Below, in pieces: positions 21,901 through 30,978 of a stretch of 64,000 bases of DNA. The translations under genes and the position numbers were made by a program. Positions within the stretch are counted from its first letter, which is position 1; each line of letters opens with the position of its first letter. The stretch spans positions 62,001-126,000 of the forward strand of contig CAJNOJ010000234.1 in the NCBI GenBank assembly GCA_905250025.1, in the 5' to 3' direction. This DNA is from Adineta ricciae. Its lineage: Eukaryota; Rotifera; Eurotatoria; Adinetida; Adinetidae. A model generated the notes under the pieces. It had not been told where the DNA came from and ran no database searches. It worked only from the letters and a program-made list of their open reading frames with translations.

Positions 21901-22759
21901 AAGTTTCGTATAATTAGTTCTATTTTAGCTTGTCGAGCTTTCCTCGAGTATCATTTGTTTAATGAAAGAATCTGATTTCCGTTCAGATAAAATTAGAGGG
22001 AAATAACACATCAAGGTTCCAAGATTACGACAATATTATAAAATATTTCTAATGTCAACAGCAAGCAGACTGTTTGTCTTGTTAATAAAAGGTCAAGATT
22101 TAGTCTTCACTATGTAATGTTGACGACTATAATATTATTATCCGATTAAAGGAAGAACTTCTTTTTTTTTCTGTATATATCTATGAAGAAAAACAACTCG
22201 TACTTTGATAAGACATATATGTTTATCTGTTAAGAAAATACAAGTAGAGATATACATCTCGTCACAATCGACGAGAAAAATTGTCAGGAAGTGCAACGCG
22301 AGTAAATGCTACTACTAGTACTTTGTATCGTTGATAGCACAAGGAATTTCTCATGAGAATACTTCTTGTTTAGCCAATTTGGAATTATATAACTACCTCA
22401 GAGATTTACGTTCGTGGAAACATAAATATTTTGAGTTGATTGACTTGTGTTGCACTAATGTGTTGTTTCTCGTTTATTTCATCGGACTGTACATCTAATT
22501 TAGTTAGATATCCATAGATCTTGAGATAATGCCTTCGATATGTTGATATTATGCGTATGAGTGATAATAAGATATGCAATATCAAAGTAGATATTCGATG
22601 TTCTACTGGTGTATGTATGAATTGTTTTCGAATGTTTTATTTAATCATGTGAAATTTATTCTACAATCTAGGAATATGTGGGTTTTTTCCTCTTTTCAAA
22701 CTCTATCTGACATCCGTTGTCAACCAAATCACTAATCTACACTAACAGAAACACATGAA
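18933..22759. other. Long AT-rich intergenic region (3.8 kb)
   Basis: No gene recognised on either strand. It contains simple sequence: CT-rich near 19234-19256, a short (TA)n near 20082-20094, GAA-rich at 21071-21081 and 21461-21480. Open frames are short and low complexity. Regulatory content cannot be judged by eye. Confidence 0.5.
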
Positions 22760-25575
22760 TTAGAGTATAGTACAAAGGCGACTTCGTTTTCTTAGTTTAT
22801 CATCGTCTTTGGTATTTTCTGGAGTGTTGGATCTAGTTATATGACTTTGATTTTGTTTGCATAAGCTTTGTAGTTCACTTTGTAAGGAAACATATTCGGT
22901 AACTGGAACGGTTGAACCTGTACGTTGACGAAGCTCGTCGTTTAAACTAAAATACATCGATGCTGGTTCCATGGATAAGATTTCCGCAAGGTGAATAAGT
23001 GCAGAACCGTTGAGACGTTTTACTAAAGGTTTTAATGTATCAAAGTTGCCTTTGGTCGTATTGCACCATTCATTGACATCATCTGAAGACCAATCGAGTA
23101 CTGGACATGACATGTAATGGTAGGATTGATTTGGAATTTGACTCGAACGATCGAGACTCAGTTGATCATTGGTTTGATTTAATACAGGTGAATTGGAGTC
23201 GCTTGTTTGATGCAAAAGTCGTCGAATTTCTTTGAGAATTGAATGTGTATCAATAATTATCAGTGGTTCAAGCCAACTGCCTTCGAGATCGCATTGTTGT
23301 TCGATTTGAATTGTCAATATAGGAATCGAATAAGGTTGAAAGGAAATATATTGAAAAGCAAAATGTGCTAAATTGTCAATTTTCATTCTTGTACTTGCAC
23401 AAAACAGACAGAGTACCGATTGGTCAATCGAATTAATCAATGTATCAAGTGATTGACAGGTGGTTGTAAGAACCAGTTCGAATGAATACTGAAATTCTGT
23501 CTGAAGACGATCACGAAATGTGACACAAACATCGTGATAGGATTCATCGGAATAAATGATGCATATCGCAGTGTTCGTTGTCAATGATAGACCATGATTG
23601 GATATCGTTCGATCTAGAGTAGAGAAGAGAAAGGATTTCGAAGTCAAAATCATTAGTAAAACAATTCGATTACTTAAACTTTGATAGCCTGAGTCTAGTA
23701 ATGACAGAATTGCTTGAGAAGCAATGTGGGTACTCGATGTGGATGTATTTAAATTTGTCGTTAACCACCGACATAGATCCAGACGTTTTTGTAAAACATC
23801 GTGAATATCTGTCGACGTACTGAATGAAAATGTCCATAGTAGTTCGGTCATAATTTCGATTAAAGCTAACGAATCATCATCATCTTGTACGATAGAGAGA
23901 ATTGTGTCGATAATCATAGAAATCAGATTGACTTTTTTCGTATAAGTTATCAATTCATCAACAATCATGGTAAATGAAAGAAAATGTGTACGTAATAAAC
24001 TAAACCAATCCAAGGCATTTAGATAAATTTGATCCCGTGAGGATGATGTAGTCGAATCATAGGATGTGTCATTATGAGTATTGCTTAATAATTGAAGAAT
24101 TTTAATAGTTCGTTGTGCTAACAAATGTATCAAGCGTTTAAAAAAGGACGATTGATAGAAATCACGTTGAGTTAATAGTAACGATAATGGATACCAAAAT
24201 TTGTGTGGCGGACGTTTAATCGTTCGTAAAATATGTTGAATATATCCCAAACGACGTAAATGTCGTTTACCATTGATAGTTAATGACAATGTCACTAAGA
24301 GGGAAATGATATCATCAATAACGCCTGGCGTTGAACATAAAATTTCGAAATGTGGAACGAAGAAAGCACAAAGATTGGCATCGACAATTGTCTCAGGATA
24401 TGTCGATGCGAGACGATCAATGAGGCGAATAAGTCGAATGATTAATGGCGATAGATCTTCGGCTGGATTCTGAGGAAGTTCACACCAAATATGAAGAATA
24501 TTTCGTATTGGTGGTATCAGAGTCAATGTCGAGGTTGTAATTGAGAGAGTGCAATAATCTAAGCAAGTAAATAGCAGAAAAATCGATCGAATGGGAATCT
24601 TTTCATTTAATGATGTATAGCGTAAGAAATCCACGGATAATTGAATAAATATTGGAAATTTTAAACAATCAATAAGACATGTTGTTAAATGATCCTTTAC
24701 GACAGCACTCGACGATAATATGGGATGATTAAATAGAATAACTAATGAATTTACACACCGGTAAAGAACATCGAGAATATCAGTTGGATTTACTTGATCA
24801 TCGGATGTTGTTTGTAGTTGAATATCATCTGGAGACACTTGACCTTCGTTTTCCTTCGAATCACAAAGAGAAAGAAACTTTTCAGAGAGATCTTCATCAC
24901 TCATTTGATTCACATGATCAATCCATTTTTATTCTTTCAATCCTTTTTGTACAACAACAGAATACTCTTTCATTTTCGATTGATACCTCAACATTACTTT
25001 GCTTTTTAACTGATTCCTTACAAAGTACTTAACATAAAAATAATGCACTGGATTTTCTCTCTGTCTCTCAGTTCTTCACTGCTGTTACTTACCGTTGACT
25101 GACTTACAACTGAACCATGTTGTTCATTACTTTCATTCGTAATCAGGTGATATATCACTTGACACATTGTCTTTAAAAAGCTCTTCTCGATAAACAAATG
25201 TGTTAAGACACGTTGAAATATTTCTTGTTTTTCATGGTCGTTAAGTAAATGTTCTTGTTGACTTAACCATTCCGATAATAATTTAAATAATTGGTGCATG
25301 TAGAACAATGCTCGATGTTCTTCGCCATTGATCATATAATTAACCAGCCATGATTGTAATAAACGTTCGGACCATTGTCGGATAACGAGAAACAATTGAT
25401 GATTAATTATATCGATGTTTAATTCTTCGATAGGCATGCAGGAGATCGATTGTCCGATGAGAGACAGTGATGGAAGTAGATACTGAGGTGGACATGCGTG
25501 AAAAAGCGCGAGAATTTCGTCCAAATGTTCGGTTGGTGACAGTGATGACGTGCATAATTGTCGAATTTCATTCAT
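22760..25575 (-). CDS. Helical-repeat / TIR / SAM-like protein with C-terminal CAAX box
   Basis: Probable cytosolic signalling or innate-immunity protein. Exon 1 is 25575 to about 25093 (strong ACG|GTAAGT donor) and the large exon runs to the stop at 22760; the acceptor is uncertain (24877 keeps frame and gives about 866 residues). Roughly residues 1-580 are Leu-rich paired helices like armadillo repeats. A TIR-like domain follows (about 593-710): NTAICIIYSDESYHDVC (beta A), then SIDQSVLCLFCAST, then PILTIQI. Next is a SAM-like segment (about 755-825: LDWSSDDVNEWC, LNGSALIHLAEIL). The C-terminus is RKRSRLCTIL: a polybasic stretch before a C-a-a-L prenylation motif, predicting geranylgeranylation and membrane tethering. 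The Glu expected in the third TIR helix appears replaced, suggesting no NADase activity. The domain order resembles other lophotrochozoan ARM-TIR proteins and differs from SARM1. Confidence 0.8.
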
Positions 25576-26558: not shown

Positions 26559-29500
26559 TTAGTATGGTACATATGTTGCTGAACCACAATTTTGTTCAAG
26601 AAAGAGTTCTAATTGTTCATGAATAAGTGCCGACGGGTTAGAATTCCATTCATAGATATTGGATGTGTGGTATAATTTGGCAATCTTTTCACGTGCTTTC
26701 ATTGATGATGATGATTGATGATTGTACGGATCATCATTCACAAGGATAAGAAAGATCTTTATTGACGAACATGTCGAGAGAATTTTCATGTAATCATGTA
26801 TGATATGATACGGTTTACGTAAAATGATAATTGTTACACAAGAATTTTCAATTAGCCAATCTAATTCACCTAGCATGCGATCGCGATGTATAAAATAGAA
26901 GCTAAAGCGTTTGCCATATATATCTTCGAGAATTTCGCCTATATTTCCATGAACTAATTCGCTATCATTGATTGAGTATAAGACGAGAGCGTCGAGTTTG
27001 ATTTGCAAACAGGAACGCGTAGGTTGTAAGGTGGGTGCAGCTTGTTTGGATCCGGAAGAGTTCGTTCGTTTTAACATGGGGACAATCGATCGAATTGTAG
27101 TGGATGTGGAGACCGTTGACGAATGAGAGATAGGCCGATTGGATAACAAACGTTGTTGTTGTTGTTGTTGTTGTTGCTGTTGTTGTGTTTGACGAGGTGG
27201 AGGAAGTGGTGGTACCGCCGGTTGTGGACGAATAACAGATGACAATTCTGTTTGAGAAACTGTTAAAGGTATAGAGGCATAATCATCTTCTTCATCATTA
27301 TCCGAATAGGATATAGACACATCGTTTTCTTGTTGTTTATATGCTGTGATTGAACTTAAGCCTAAAGAAACATGCGATAATGTCTTGATTTTTTTTTCTC
27401 GCAAAAAGCGAAACCATACTTTTTTGTCTAGTTGAATGAAGTAATTTTTGTATTGCTGTTGTTGATGACGATGACGATATTTGTGGTGGTGTTGTTGATG
27501 TAGATGACTGTAATGTTTTCTGGTAATGATTAGATGTTTTCTTCAAATCACCATTCGATAGAAGTTTTCTTTCGGCAGGCGACGGATGTTTCGAACGTTT
27601 TTTCCGTTGACAAAGACAAAGTAGAACACATAGTATAACGACACAAACAATAATCAATATAAATATACTAATACCAATTAAAATATAAATACGATACTTC
27701 TCATGGAATACTAATTGTAAAATTCGTCTCGAATTTGGAGTGTAATCATACAATGATTGTTCTTCTTCAGATTGTAAATGCTGATTATTGATATTCAAGC
27801 TTTTTTGACAAGATTCACTGTTCGAATGTTGACAACAATCGTTGGCTGTCAATGGCGTTTCAATGTTAAAACTCGATGCTAAAATTGATCGATTACAAGC
27901 GAAACCTTTGCCGTAGGTTAATGATTTCAAACGTATATTTGATTGAAATTCGCCGTTATTATCGTAAAACTTCGGTATCCATGGATTATTATGAAGGAAA
28001 AGATAACGAAGATTGAATAAGGTTGAGAATGTTCGCGAATGAATGGTTTTTAACTGATTTGAAGATAGATCCAGATGTTCCATCTTGTTTAAAGTGGAAA
28101 ATTCTTCACTGGATAACTGTTCAAGATGATTGTTTGATAAAAGTAAATATTGTAGTTTAGTCAAGTGTGTTAAATTCTTTTCCAAAGACTTGATTTGATT
28201 GTGATTCAAATTCAAATGTGTTGTCGATAGTGGAATACTCGATGGAATTTTACTTAAATATCGATTAGAGCAATTTACATAGTTCTTCGTTGAATCGAAT
28301 GAATGTTTACATGTACATTCCATGGGACATTGATAATAACATTCACAGTTATTCATTTCGAATGGTGACATCAATGATGAACAGCAGGAGCAAGTCGATG
28401 GACAGGATTTTACATAGGAACAAAAACTATTTGAAGAATTCAGATCGAATAATGAGCGATGAATTGTCGATTCAATCATATCTTGACACGTTAAATTAGA
28501 TAAATGTAAAAGTTTTATACGAGCTTGTTTAACAAGGTTTTGTGAAAGTATTGAAGCAGTTGGTGGAGCATTTTCGAGAAACAATTGTTGACGACGACGA
28601 CGACGTTTGTGTAGGTAATTCGTGGGATTTCGTGTTTGAGAGAAGATATCTGGCGGTATGTATTGCGAAGGATAAAGTGCAGGTGAAAATTGTTGTGAAG
28701 TCGGTTGAAATGCTGGAGGTACTAAAGAAAAACCGAAGTAAACTTCACTTTAAATCCATTTTCTACGCTCGATGGATTCTTGATACATTCTCTAATAGTA
28801 AACATATTTCTCACGCAATATTGATGCCTAATGAAGTTATAATTGCTTTTCTAGTCTTACGAGATCGATAACTATCAATAAATGATTATTTCATTGTTTA
28901 TATTCTTCCGATTACTTTTCTTGTTTAACGTTGTAATATTTTTCTTCGTCATCCTGGATGTATATTAACCTTTGTGTTTTCGCAGTCGTCTCTCTGACAG
29001 ATCGGAGTGATGTAATTGAAAGTTAAAAGTTAATAGAAACGAGTAACTTATCAGTATATCAATTAACTTCCTCTGAACATCATACACACAAGGATGGAGG
29101 ATAATTAGGGCAAAGACAAATGACAGAGAACAATTGACTTCGCTAGTCGGCTGAAGTTAATCATGCAATCTATATGCAAGGCATGTTGTCATTGATAGGT
29201 CACAAAGAAAATTAGAACAGCTGGCCTGATCAAAAAAGAAAATCTTCGACTTTTTCCCGAATAAAGAAAAACATTTGCTTTTCATTAGATCAAACAATAA
29301 CAGATAATTTGACTTACATTGAAACGTTGTTGGTTGAGATGTTGGAACATCGCTTTGTAATAGAGGAGAGATATTCTCATGTAGAACACAATCGCATTCC
29401 AATGGATTGTTGTTGATATTCAATTCAATCAATGGGCCACGTCGTTTAATTCCTGTTAATGGTAATTGTAGAGTCTTGAGTTGATTGGAAGATAAATCAA

Positions 29501-30839
29501 GTGAAATGATATATTTATCTTGCGTTGACGCTGATGAAAAGATATCGAAGTCGATTTGATTGATATTATTCAGCGACATATCCACGTATAACACAGGTAA
29601 ATGATGATCATAACTAGCTATTGTATGCGCATCATATGGGACGGGAAGACGAGGTAATAAATTCAAATTGTTTGATGAAATATTTAAATAACGAAGTTTT
29701 TGTAATGGGAGAAATAAATCATCGAATGGTAATGAAGGGTATGAAGCTGTTAAATCAAGTATTTCTAAATACGGTATACGTGTGAATGTGTCCTGTTGAA
29801 TATCTAATGGTGAATTATAACTTAAATTTAATGTATTTAATGAATACAACGATTTGAATGATGTGTAATCCAATGCTTTGATCAGATTGTTTGATAAGTC
29901 CAAATAGCGTAGCGTTGATGGAAATTTCGTTTTTAGGATGCTGATTTGGTTGTTCGAGAGAATCAACGTGACTAAATCAGGTATTTCAATTTGAGAGAAT
30001 AATCTATTCAATTGCAGATCATCTAATTGTGTATGACAGAGATCAAGATAAACTAAATTTGGATATGAACCAATCAAATCGAAATGTGTTGTGTGGGTGA
30101 TGGTCAAATGTATGAGCGAAGAAAGTGAATTCAATAGAAATTGTTTTGAAGAAAATTTCACAAAATAAAACGCTAGAAATGTTGTTGTACTTGTTAAATT
30201 CAGTGAATTAATATTGAATGTTGTATTATAAAAAATCAATGTTTCCGGTTTGACTTGGAGAATGAACTGATTCGTTTCGATAATTGTATCGAGAAAACGT
30301 AAAGAGAGAAGACTTAATTGACATTGATGAAGCGACGTGTTCGATTGTAAACGGTAGAATGTTACACGAGATTGATTCAATGAAGAACAAAATTGCTCGA
30401 AATTGACGAGATTTTGCATGAGATCATTATTGAAATGATCAAATTCGTATTCATGTTCGTCGAAAGTTTTCTTCGTTAAATGAGAGAATGATGTTCGAAA
30501 CTGATGAACATTTTCCGATTCGATTTCGTCGAGTCTGACGCGAAGAATGTCTTCAGTGAGACGTTTTGTCGCATTATCTGAACAAATATTTGCCAGCAAC
30601 GGCGTCGAGAATAACGACGAACAAAGATTGGATGATGAAAACATTGGAGGTGATGAGAGACATGTACACATGTCACATTTATATATGCGCTGATTGAGAT
30701 CTTTATAATGACATGGATATATAGGACGAATTGTTGTTGGCAAAAGTGTTGAACTTATTGGTATAATGGACGAGATGAATAGAATGGTCATTAAGGTGGT
30801 AGAAAGTTGAAAATTAATAACGATATAGTCATTGTTCAT
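26559..30839 (-). CDS. Toll-like receptor (LRR-TM-TIR)
   Basis: Three exons, 30839-29318, 28721-27420 and 27361-26559, sum to 3627 bp, giving 1208 residues. The N-terminal hydrophobic stretch is a signal sequence. The ectodomain has leucine-rich repeats (for example LRYLDLSNNLIKAL, LRYLNISSNNLNLLP) ending in a cysteine cap (NPLECDCVL), then a second block opened by an N-terminal Cys cap (CPMECTC...NCSN) and more repeats: the multiple-cysteine-cluster arrangement of protostome Tolls. A single membrane helix lies near residues 840-866. The cytoplasmic side has a roughly 200-residue linker with poly-Pro and 11 Gln, then a TIR domain from about 1064 (DALVLYS box 1; HRDRMLGE box 2 lacking the usual Pro; YEWNSNP near box 3). 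An apparent frameshift at an A-run near 27400 is resolved by a 59-bp intron (27362-27420 region). The ATG sits one base after a TTTTAG acceptor. Confidence 0.9.
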
Positions 30840-30978
30840 TCTAAAACACAGAAAATGACTTGTTATGTTTTCTCGCTTGCAAAGATTCACAATTGAGTCT
30901 ATGTTAATCAATGATAGTTTATGTTCTATGCGAGGTTAACCTATACTTTAAGATTAACGATGTTCACATGTCAACATA
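30805..30978 (+). repeat. Left arm of perfect 174-bp inverted repeat 2
   Basis: Reverse complement is identical to 32585-32758. The arm covers the first codons of the Toll-like receptor gene and its immediate upstream region. Confidence 0.95.

Follow-up and report, generated by a model that had tools for sequence, protein, structure and literature searches.

The 64,000-nucleotide stretch of the Adineta ricciae genome analyzed here (the window, on contig C234) codes on its minus strand, at positions 22760-25575, for a predicted 858-residue protein that probably has the domain type ARM-TIR-SAM and that very likely ends in a functional CAAX box. We are just as confident that this tail is real and that it recurs through a wider family of TIR-SAM proteins. 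The explanation toward which we lean is that the gene product is a lipid-anchored bdelloid TIR-SAM protein, acting as a non-catalytic scaffold or regulator for an adjoining receptor or for paralogues that carry a glutamate missing from its own TIR-like domain. We infer its splicing, prenylation, location, partners, and function from sequence.

The gene is read as two exons. Exon 1 (25093-25575; 161 codons, MNEIRQ...SQST) is defined by the open reading frame (ORF) listing and the spliced reading and ends at a phase 0 donor, ACG/GTAAGT; it is followed by a 239-base intron (24854-25092, GTAAGT...TTCGAAG) and by exon 2 (22760-24853), which codes for 697 residues and the stop and covers the remaining helical region, the TIR-like domain, the SAM-like domain, and the tail. 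The minus-strand ORF at 22760-24928 ends in ...DDDKLRKRSRLCTIL and a stop codon. The splice sites are predicted from GT-AG signals and from agreement with a homologue on contig C39, which has the same sites, and an ohnolog on contig C27, which has a 53-base intron at the same position; exon 1 itself is also found in both (97% in C39, 62% in C27). An upstream MSDEDLSEKF was considered as the start of the second exon and rejected, as comparison with the C27 ohnolog places it within the intron. A single exon of the window holds the TIR-like part, the SAM-like part, and the tail, including the stop, and poly(A)-signal-like motifs lie on the same strand 100 nt (AATAAA, 22655-22660) and ~115 nt (overlapping ATTAAA/AATAAA, 22636-22645) 3' of the stop. 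The initial annotation had placed the feature at 22760-23600; the tail is where it was reported, but the interval takes in no more than the final third of the gene, with the TIR-like part, the SAM-like part, and the tail.

Bdelloid genomes are expected to hold paired homologues as well as ohnologs. C234 and C39 are colinear over ~14 kb with 94.4% nucleotide identity, the C39 homologue of the gene is 95% identical, and exon 2 is under purifying selection judging from the comparison of these two copies (dN 0.021, dS 0.126). On C27 the gene order is maintained at lower identity than on C39; the ohnolog is 51 and 53% identical in two pieces, with a spliced product of 831 residues. It carries an extra 55-base intron (GTAAGT...TTTAG) between the helical part and the TIR that is absent from the window and from C39. 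A frameshift at this place in C27 was considered and rejected, since the intron maintains the frame. Telomere-repeat counts are no guide to bdelloid affinity, at 12 and 26 matches versus 14 and 30 for the control.

The tail itself (KLRKRSRLCTIL, 22763-22798, minus strand) was characterized through the ORF translation, a family census, and tail comparison, and consists of C-T-I-L preceded by six lysines or arginines in twelve residues. The C39 homologue also ends in CTIL and the C27 ohnolog in KHSRFCTII, with KPKKRRWKHSRF (7/12 basic) preceding CTII, and all three copies have a Cys at position -4, an aliphatic a2, and an X of the FTase/GGTase I type. Over the 32-codon tail, C234 and C39 differ by six non-synonymous changes (dN 0.08), all upstream of the last 15 residues; these are identical, yet they have no synonymous changes either, and the identity is weak evidence because of this. 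The C27 ohnolog is more telling on conservation of the tail than the C39 identity, in that its synonymous sites are saturated (dS about 2) and SR-x-C-T-I-x is nevertheless retained. The polybasic CAAX box of geranylgeranyl type that the initial annotation proposed is present in homologue and ohnolog alike, and it recurs in distant TIR-SAM paralogues.

A search of the 130-Mb assembly for relatives beyond the three window-type copies identifies a TIR_2-plus-SAM paralogue on contig C94 (E 3e-8) and a weaker match on C182, both with the order TIR-SAM-tail. Used as a query, the C94 TIR-SAM protein has 129 match rows in the genome (found exon by exon, hence corresponding to fewer genes), of which 50, ranked by likeness to this CAAX-bearing query, were taken into the census: 30 that were cut first and 20 selected for matches extending into or close to the SAM. 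The window, C39, C27, and C182 loci were also included. SAM-containing ORFs were recognized with a profile (A2) built from 14 rows, 11 of them ending in CAAX, all trimmed before the tail; at E below 1e-3 it matches 50 ORFs, or 45 once five same-place repeats are removed. Among the last 14 positions of these 45, Cys occurs at -4 in 20 ORFs, at -5 in four, at -1 in three, at -10 in one, and elsewhere in none, and all 20 tails with Cys at -4 fit C-x-[ILVMFTA]-[LIMFSAQC], where x is not Pro. The comparison set comprised 130 closed ORFs, each 100 residues or longer, from the window and seven other stretches, mostly non-genes and excluding family ORFs and any ORF ending in CTIL; here Cys is at -4 in 8/130 and the CAAX pattern is present in 1/130 (Fisher p 6e-13 against 20/45, with relatedness ignored). 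Merging ORFs that are at least 85% alike leaves CAAX in 17 of 36 groups. The tail is thus beyond chance, as the C39 and C27 copies had also indicated, and the notion that it is a peculiarity of one protein gives way to a pattern spread through part of the TIR-SAM family.

The reading in which the C terminus is simply extended, free of constraint, and matches a CAAX box by accident is consequently very improbable. It would accommodate the fast evolution of the stretch from SAM to tail and the 25 of 45 SAM ORFs that have no CAAX, some of which may continue into further 3' exons, but it is at odds with the position-specific enrichment, with the ohnolog, and with binomial p values of 4e-13 (20/45) and 7e-12 (17/36) at the control rate of 8/130, relatedness again being ignored. 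In a tree of 42 SAM rows (three short-SAM rows omitted) the CAAX label requires at least eight changes, versus a mean of 14.0 on shuffling; frequent loss from an old origin and repeated gain would both account for this.

The composition of the boxes bears on what kind of signal they are. They comprise CTIL (three ORFs), CSVM (two), CTII, CALL, CALF, CQII, CRMM, CRLM, CELM, CNVM, CVVM, CNLL, CNIL, CSLM, CVLS, CSIL, and CVIS, such that a2 is Ile, Leu, Val, or Met in 20/20 tails and X is Met in eight, Leu in seven, Ile in two, Ser in two, and Phe in one; a further paralogue in which SAM was not detected (L031) ends in CVLL. Prenyltransferases have preferences at a2 and X that match the tails found, and this spectrum of residues therefore points to a prenylation signal rather than to a PDZ ligand. 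We reject on the family pattern, as highly improbable, a role of the window tail as a class I PDZ ligand (T-I-L) in place of a CAAX box: although C-T-I-L does fit [ST]-x-[VIL], only 5/20 of the Cys(-4) tails do so, 8/20 end in Met, and a2 is aliphatic or Met throughout. We assign a similarly small probability to palmitoylation of the Cys, or membrane binding through charge alone, with no prenylation. A second Cys stands beside the first in three tails (L021, L022, and L023) and several tails are basic, as that reading would predict, whereas the a2 and X residues agree with prenyltransferase preferences and eight of the 20 tails (L019, L032, L033, L035, L036, L038, L041, and L043) retain the CAAX box with no second Cys and no more than one basic residue in twelve. 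The polybasic stretch is strong in the window type and in L051 (5/12 before the Cys) and is missing (0/12) from the CNVM, CSVM, and CSLM tails.

Members of the family are clustered in places. Seven of the 129 match rows fall within ~32 kb on contig C19, and among the C19 and C7 loci (L017-L025) Met closes the boxes on C19, where four ORFs have none, and the boxes of the two C7 genes end in Ile and Leu. One ORF on C225 (L041, 32278-33276) contains two TIR_2 stretches, a SAM, and a CSVM tail, and has a near-identical copy downstream.

Candidate enzymes for the modification are encoded in the genome. The prenyltransferase beta-subunit family PF00432 has nine match rows, assigned at the level of the family; the six best form three pairs with similar scores, of which the third runs through stops as if spanning introns. 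ICMT (PF04140) also has nine match rows, in a search that matches 5/14 prokaryote control genomes as well. Separately, excerpts of a lamin study report that the lamins of these animals are without CAAX and give the A. ricciae lamin tail as VVAEKVVSVK (PMC10125929). An open stretch ending in VVAEKVVSVK and a stop is present in two of 17 stretches lying 3' of LTD-domain matches, both on contig C5 (L070 and L071) and without CAAX, and it corresponds to the published tail as excerpted there. A TAG-type in-frame stop directly precedes it, as would be expected at an AG acceptor.

The domains preceding the tail are diverged to different degrees. The SAM-like domain (22865-23104, minus strand) is matched by A2 at E 3.8e-26, the window being one of the rows of that profile, and A2 in turn identifies SAM domains in PDB, the best being ETV6 chains (E 9.2e-6). 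The TIR-like domain (23222-23575, minus strand) is detected with a local TIR profile of 51 paralogue stretches, relatives of the Glu-bearing C94 protein, at a domain E of 1.1e-4; the window-type TIRs range from 1e-5 to 1e-4 in this set of six sequences, and the window TIR is a weak match by hhalign (E 0.064). No Pfam TIR match is found in either window exon or in the C27 copy, in contrast to the seven of seven other paralogue ORFs scanned that have TIR_2 (E 3e-21 to 3e-40). The TIR assignment of the initial annotation is accordingly weaker than was put there, for a TIR-like domain that is degenerate and that lacks the catalytic Glu. In the alignments the Glu column is occupied by Ala in the window, Val in C39, and Ile in C27, but by Glu in 51 of the 52 paralogue stretches that cover it (a count that includes repeats from overlapping loci) and by Thr in the other; three further stretches fall short of the column. 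The stretch matched in the plant TIR proteins Roq1 and RUN1 ends in a Glu that we take to be catalytic, and the paralogue Glu is aligned with it. Because the window member has Ala in this column it is unlikely to cleave NAD, and the Glu-bearing paralogues may do so.

Upstream of the TIR-like domain is a presumed ARM-like helical region (23600-25575, minus strand, limits approximate) that spans both exons and the intron between them. AlphaFold, run on exon 2 as a single sequence, gives a model of very low confidence (mean pLDDT 42.5) that has helices to residue 391 save for two-residue strands near its start, then alternating strands and helices, and then helices again; the model is consistent with an ARM-TIR-SAM arrangement and proves nothing. 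There is no Pfam ARM match in either exon, exon 1 having a single chance-level Pfam match (E 0.19) and exon 2 none, and no PDB relatives of the protein, searched as the 715 residues of the second ORF, are found at E up to 1. The ARM part that had been proposed thus stands as a helical region in that model and is not borne out by Pfam.

Directly upstream of the CAAX gene and on the same strand is a gene with leucine-rich repeats, a transmembrane segment, and a TIR-like domain (26562-30935). Its first leucine-rich-repeat ORF is at 29157-30935 (LRR_8, E 3.7e-11), and an LRRNT-like region, further repeats, and the transmembrane segment are at 27337-28749 (LRR_8, E 4.5e-14; LRRNT 4e-4, below the cut-off), with a hydropathy peak of 3.56 at about 27610-27672. 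The cytoplasmic TIR-like domain (26562-27017; KLDALVLYS..., IHRDRMLGELDWLIENS...) is 77% identical in the C27 copy and is recognized weakly by the local profile (domain E 0.0046 for C27 and 0.11-0.12 for the other two copies) and by hhalign (E 0.067). The cytoplasmic part has no Pfam or PDB match and only three genome matches, namely, itself and the C39 and C27 copies. With LRR and transmembrane segments detected and the TIR recognized by a weak profile and by eye, this is probably a diverged Toll-like receptor. The order of this gene, the CAAX gene, and a GPCR gene is retained in both C39 and C27. Toll-like receptors are reported to be absent from surveyed bdelloids, and A. vaga is described as having TIR and LRR proteins with no canonical TLR (PMC6043800). 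The connection to Toll signaling drawn in the initial annotation gains from this placement and its linkage in C39 and C27, and from placement only; a role of the window protein as a Toll adaptor is a tentative proposal. We also observe ORFs with Death plus TIR_2 domains, resembling MyD88, at C265:41627-42802 and C28:413158-414450, the latter with two TIR matches, and no match to the Rel-homology domain genome-wide in a search to which the control genomes gave none either. Excerpts of a paper on rotifer MLKL make no mention of TIR (PMC11476962).

A functional CAAX box need not imply Toll, and the proteins may instead form a membrane-anchored SARM-like system for NAD cleavage, cell death, or neuronal or stress responses, with the window member as a non-catalytic modulator. 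We regard this as a rather doubtful alternative. The Glu in 51/52 covering paralogue stretches, the SAM in 45 ORFs, and the three genome matches of the neighbor's cytoplasmic part versus 129 rows for the TIR-SAM query speak for it; survival of the receptor-gene linkage in the C27 ohnolog speaks against it.

Several known systems share parts of this design. SARM1 contains ARM, SAM, and TIR parts in the order ARM-SAM-SAM-TIR, which differs from the rotifer arrangement of a helical region followed by a TIR-like domain, a single SAM, and CAAX, with no Glu in the window TIR. The paralogue TIR profile reaches the NAD(+) hydrolase tir-1 (8p2m, E 0.0069), although its best PDB match is the CRISPR-associated TIR Cat1 (E 5.8e-11), and the SAM profile matches SARM1 at chance level only (E 0.91). 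TIRAP/Mal and TRAM are likewise TIR proteins with a membrane-placing signal. That signal is PIP2 binding or N-myristoylation, as opposed to the C-terminal CAAX of the rotifer protein, and we know of no ARM or SAM in either. Rho-type GTPases and G-protein gamma subunits use a polybasic stretch or an aliphatic CAAL box as a membrane anchor; the likeness is in the anchor alone, the proteins being unrelated. Molluscan ARM-TIR proteins (Crassostrea gigas and Aplysia californica), described in excerpts as a class of unknown function from genomes in which TIR adaptors are expanded (PMC4346834 and PMC9334734), share an armadillo-type part and TIR, with the ARM repeats of the rotifer protein being presumed. 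A prenylation tail is unmentioned in those excerpts, and the rotifer protein differs in having a SAM-like domain after the TIR and a CAAX end.

In the mechanism that we favor, geranylgeranyltransferase I would attach its lipid to the CTIL Cys, which would be methylated once the three residues behind it had been removed, and the adjoining polybasic stretch would favor the inner leaflet of the plasma membrane with its negative charge. At the membrane the helical and SAM parts would collect partners and the TIR-like part would provide a docking surface. Since the Glu with which NAD-cleaving TIRs carry out catalysis is missing from the window copy, this copy would most likely serve as a scaffold or regulator for the Toll-like receptor next door or for the Glu-bearing, prenyl-tailed TIR-SAM paralogues. 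More speculatively, bdelloids might possess an expanded prenyl-anchored TIR-SAM system in which farnesyl and geranylgeranyl tails are mixed. NAD would then be cleaved at membranes by the members that carry the Glu, and those without it, the window protein among them, would regulate these or couple them to a hidden Toll-like receptor missed by rotifer surveys.

From its recurrence, the tail would seem to mark a family of TIR proteins tethered to membranes. Animal TIR adaptors reach membranes through lipid-binding domains or N-myristoylation, and we found no prenylated TIR protein in the open-access literature, judged by titles and the openings of abstracts. If true, prenylation signals at the C termini of a TIR family would represent another solution to membrane placement, and membrane-bound TIR signaling, if prenyl-anchored, would be testable with prenyltransferase inhibitors. 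Such a family would sit in animals whose lamins, according to the excerpted report, lack CAAX (PMC10125929).
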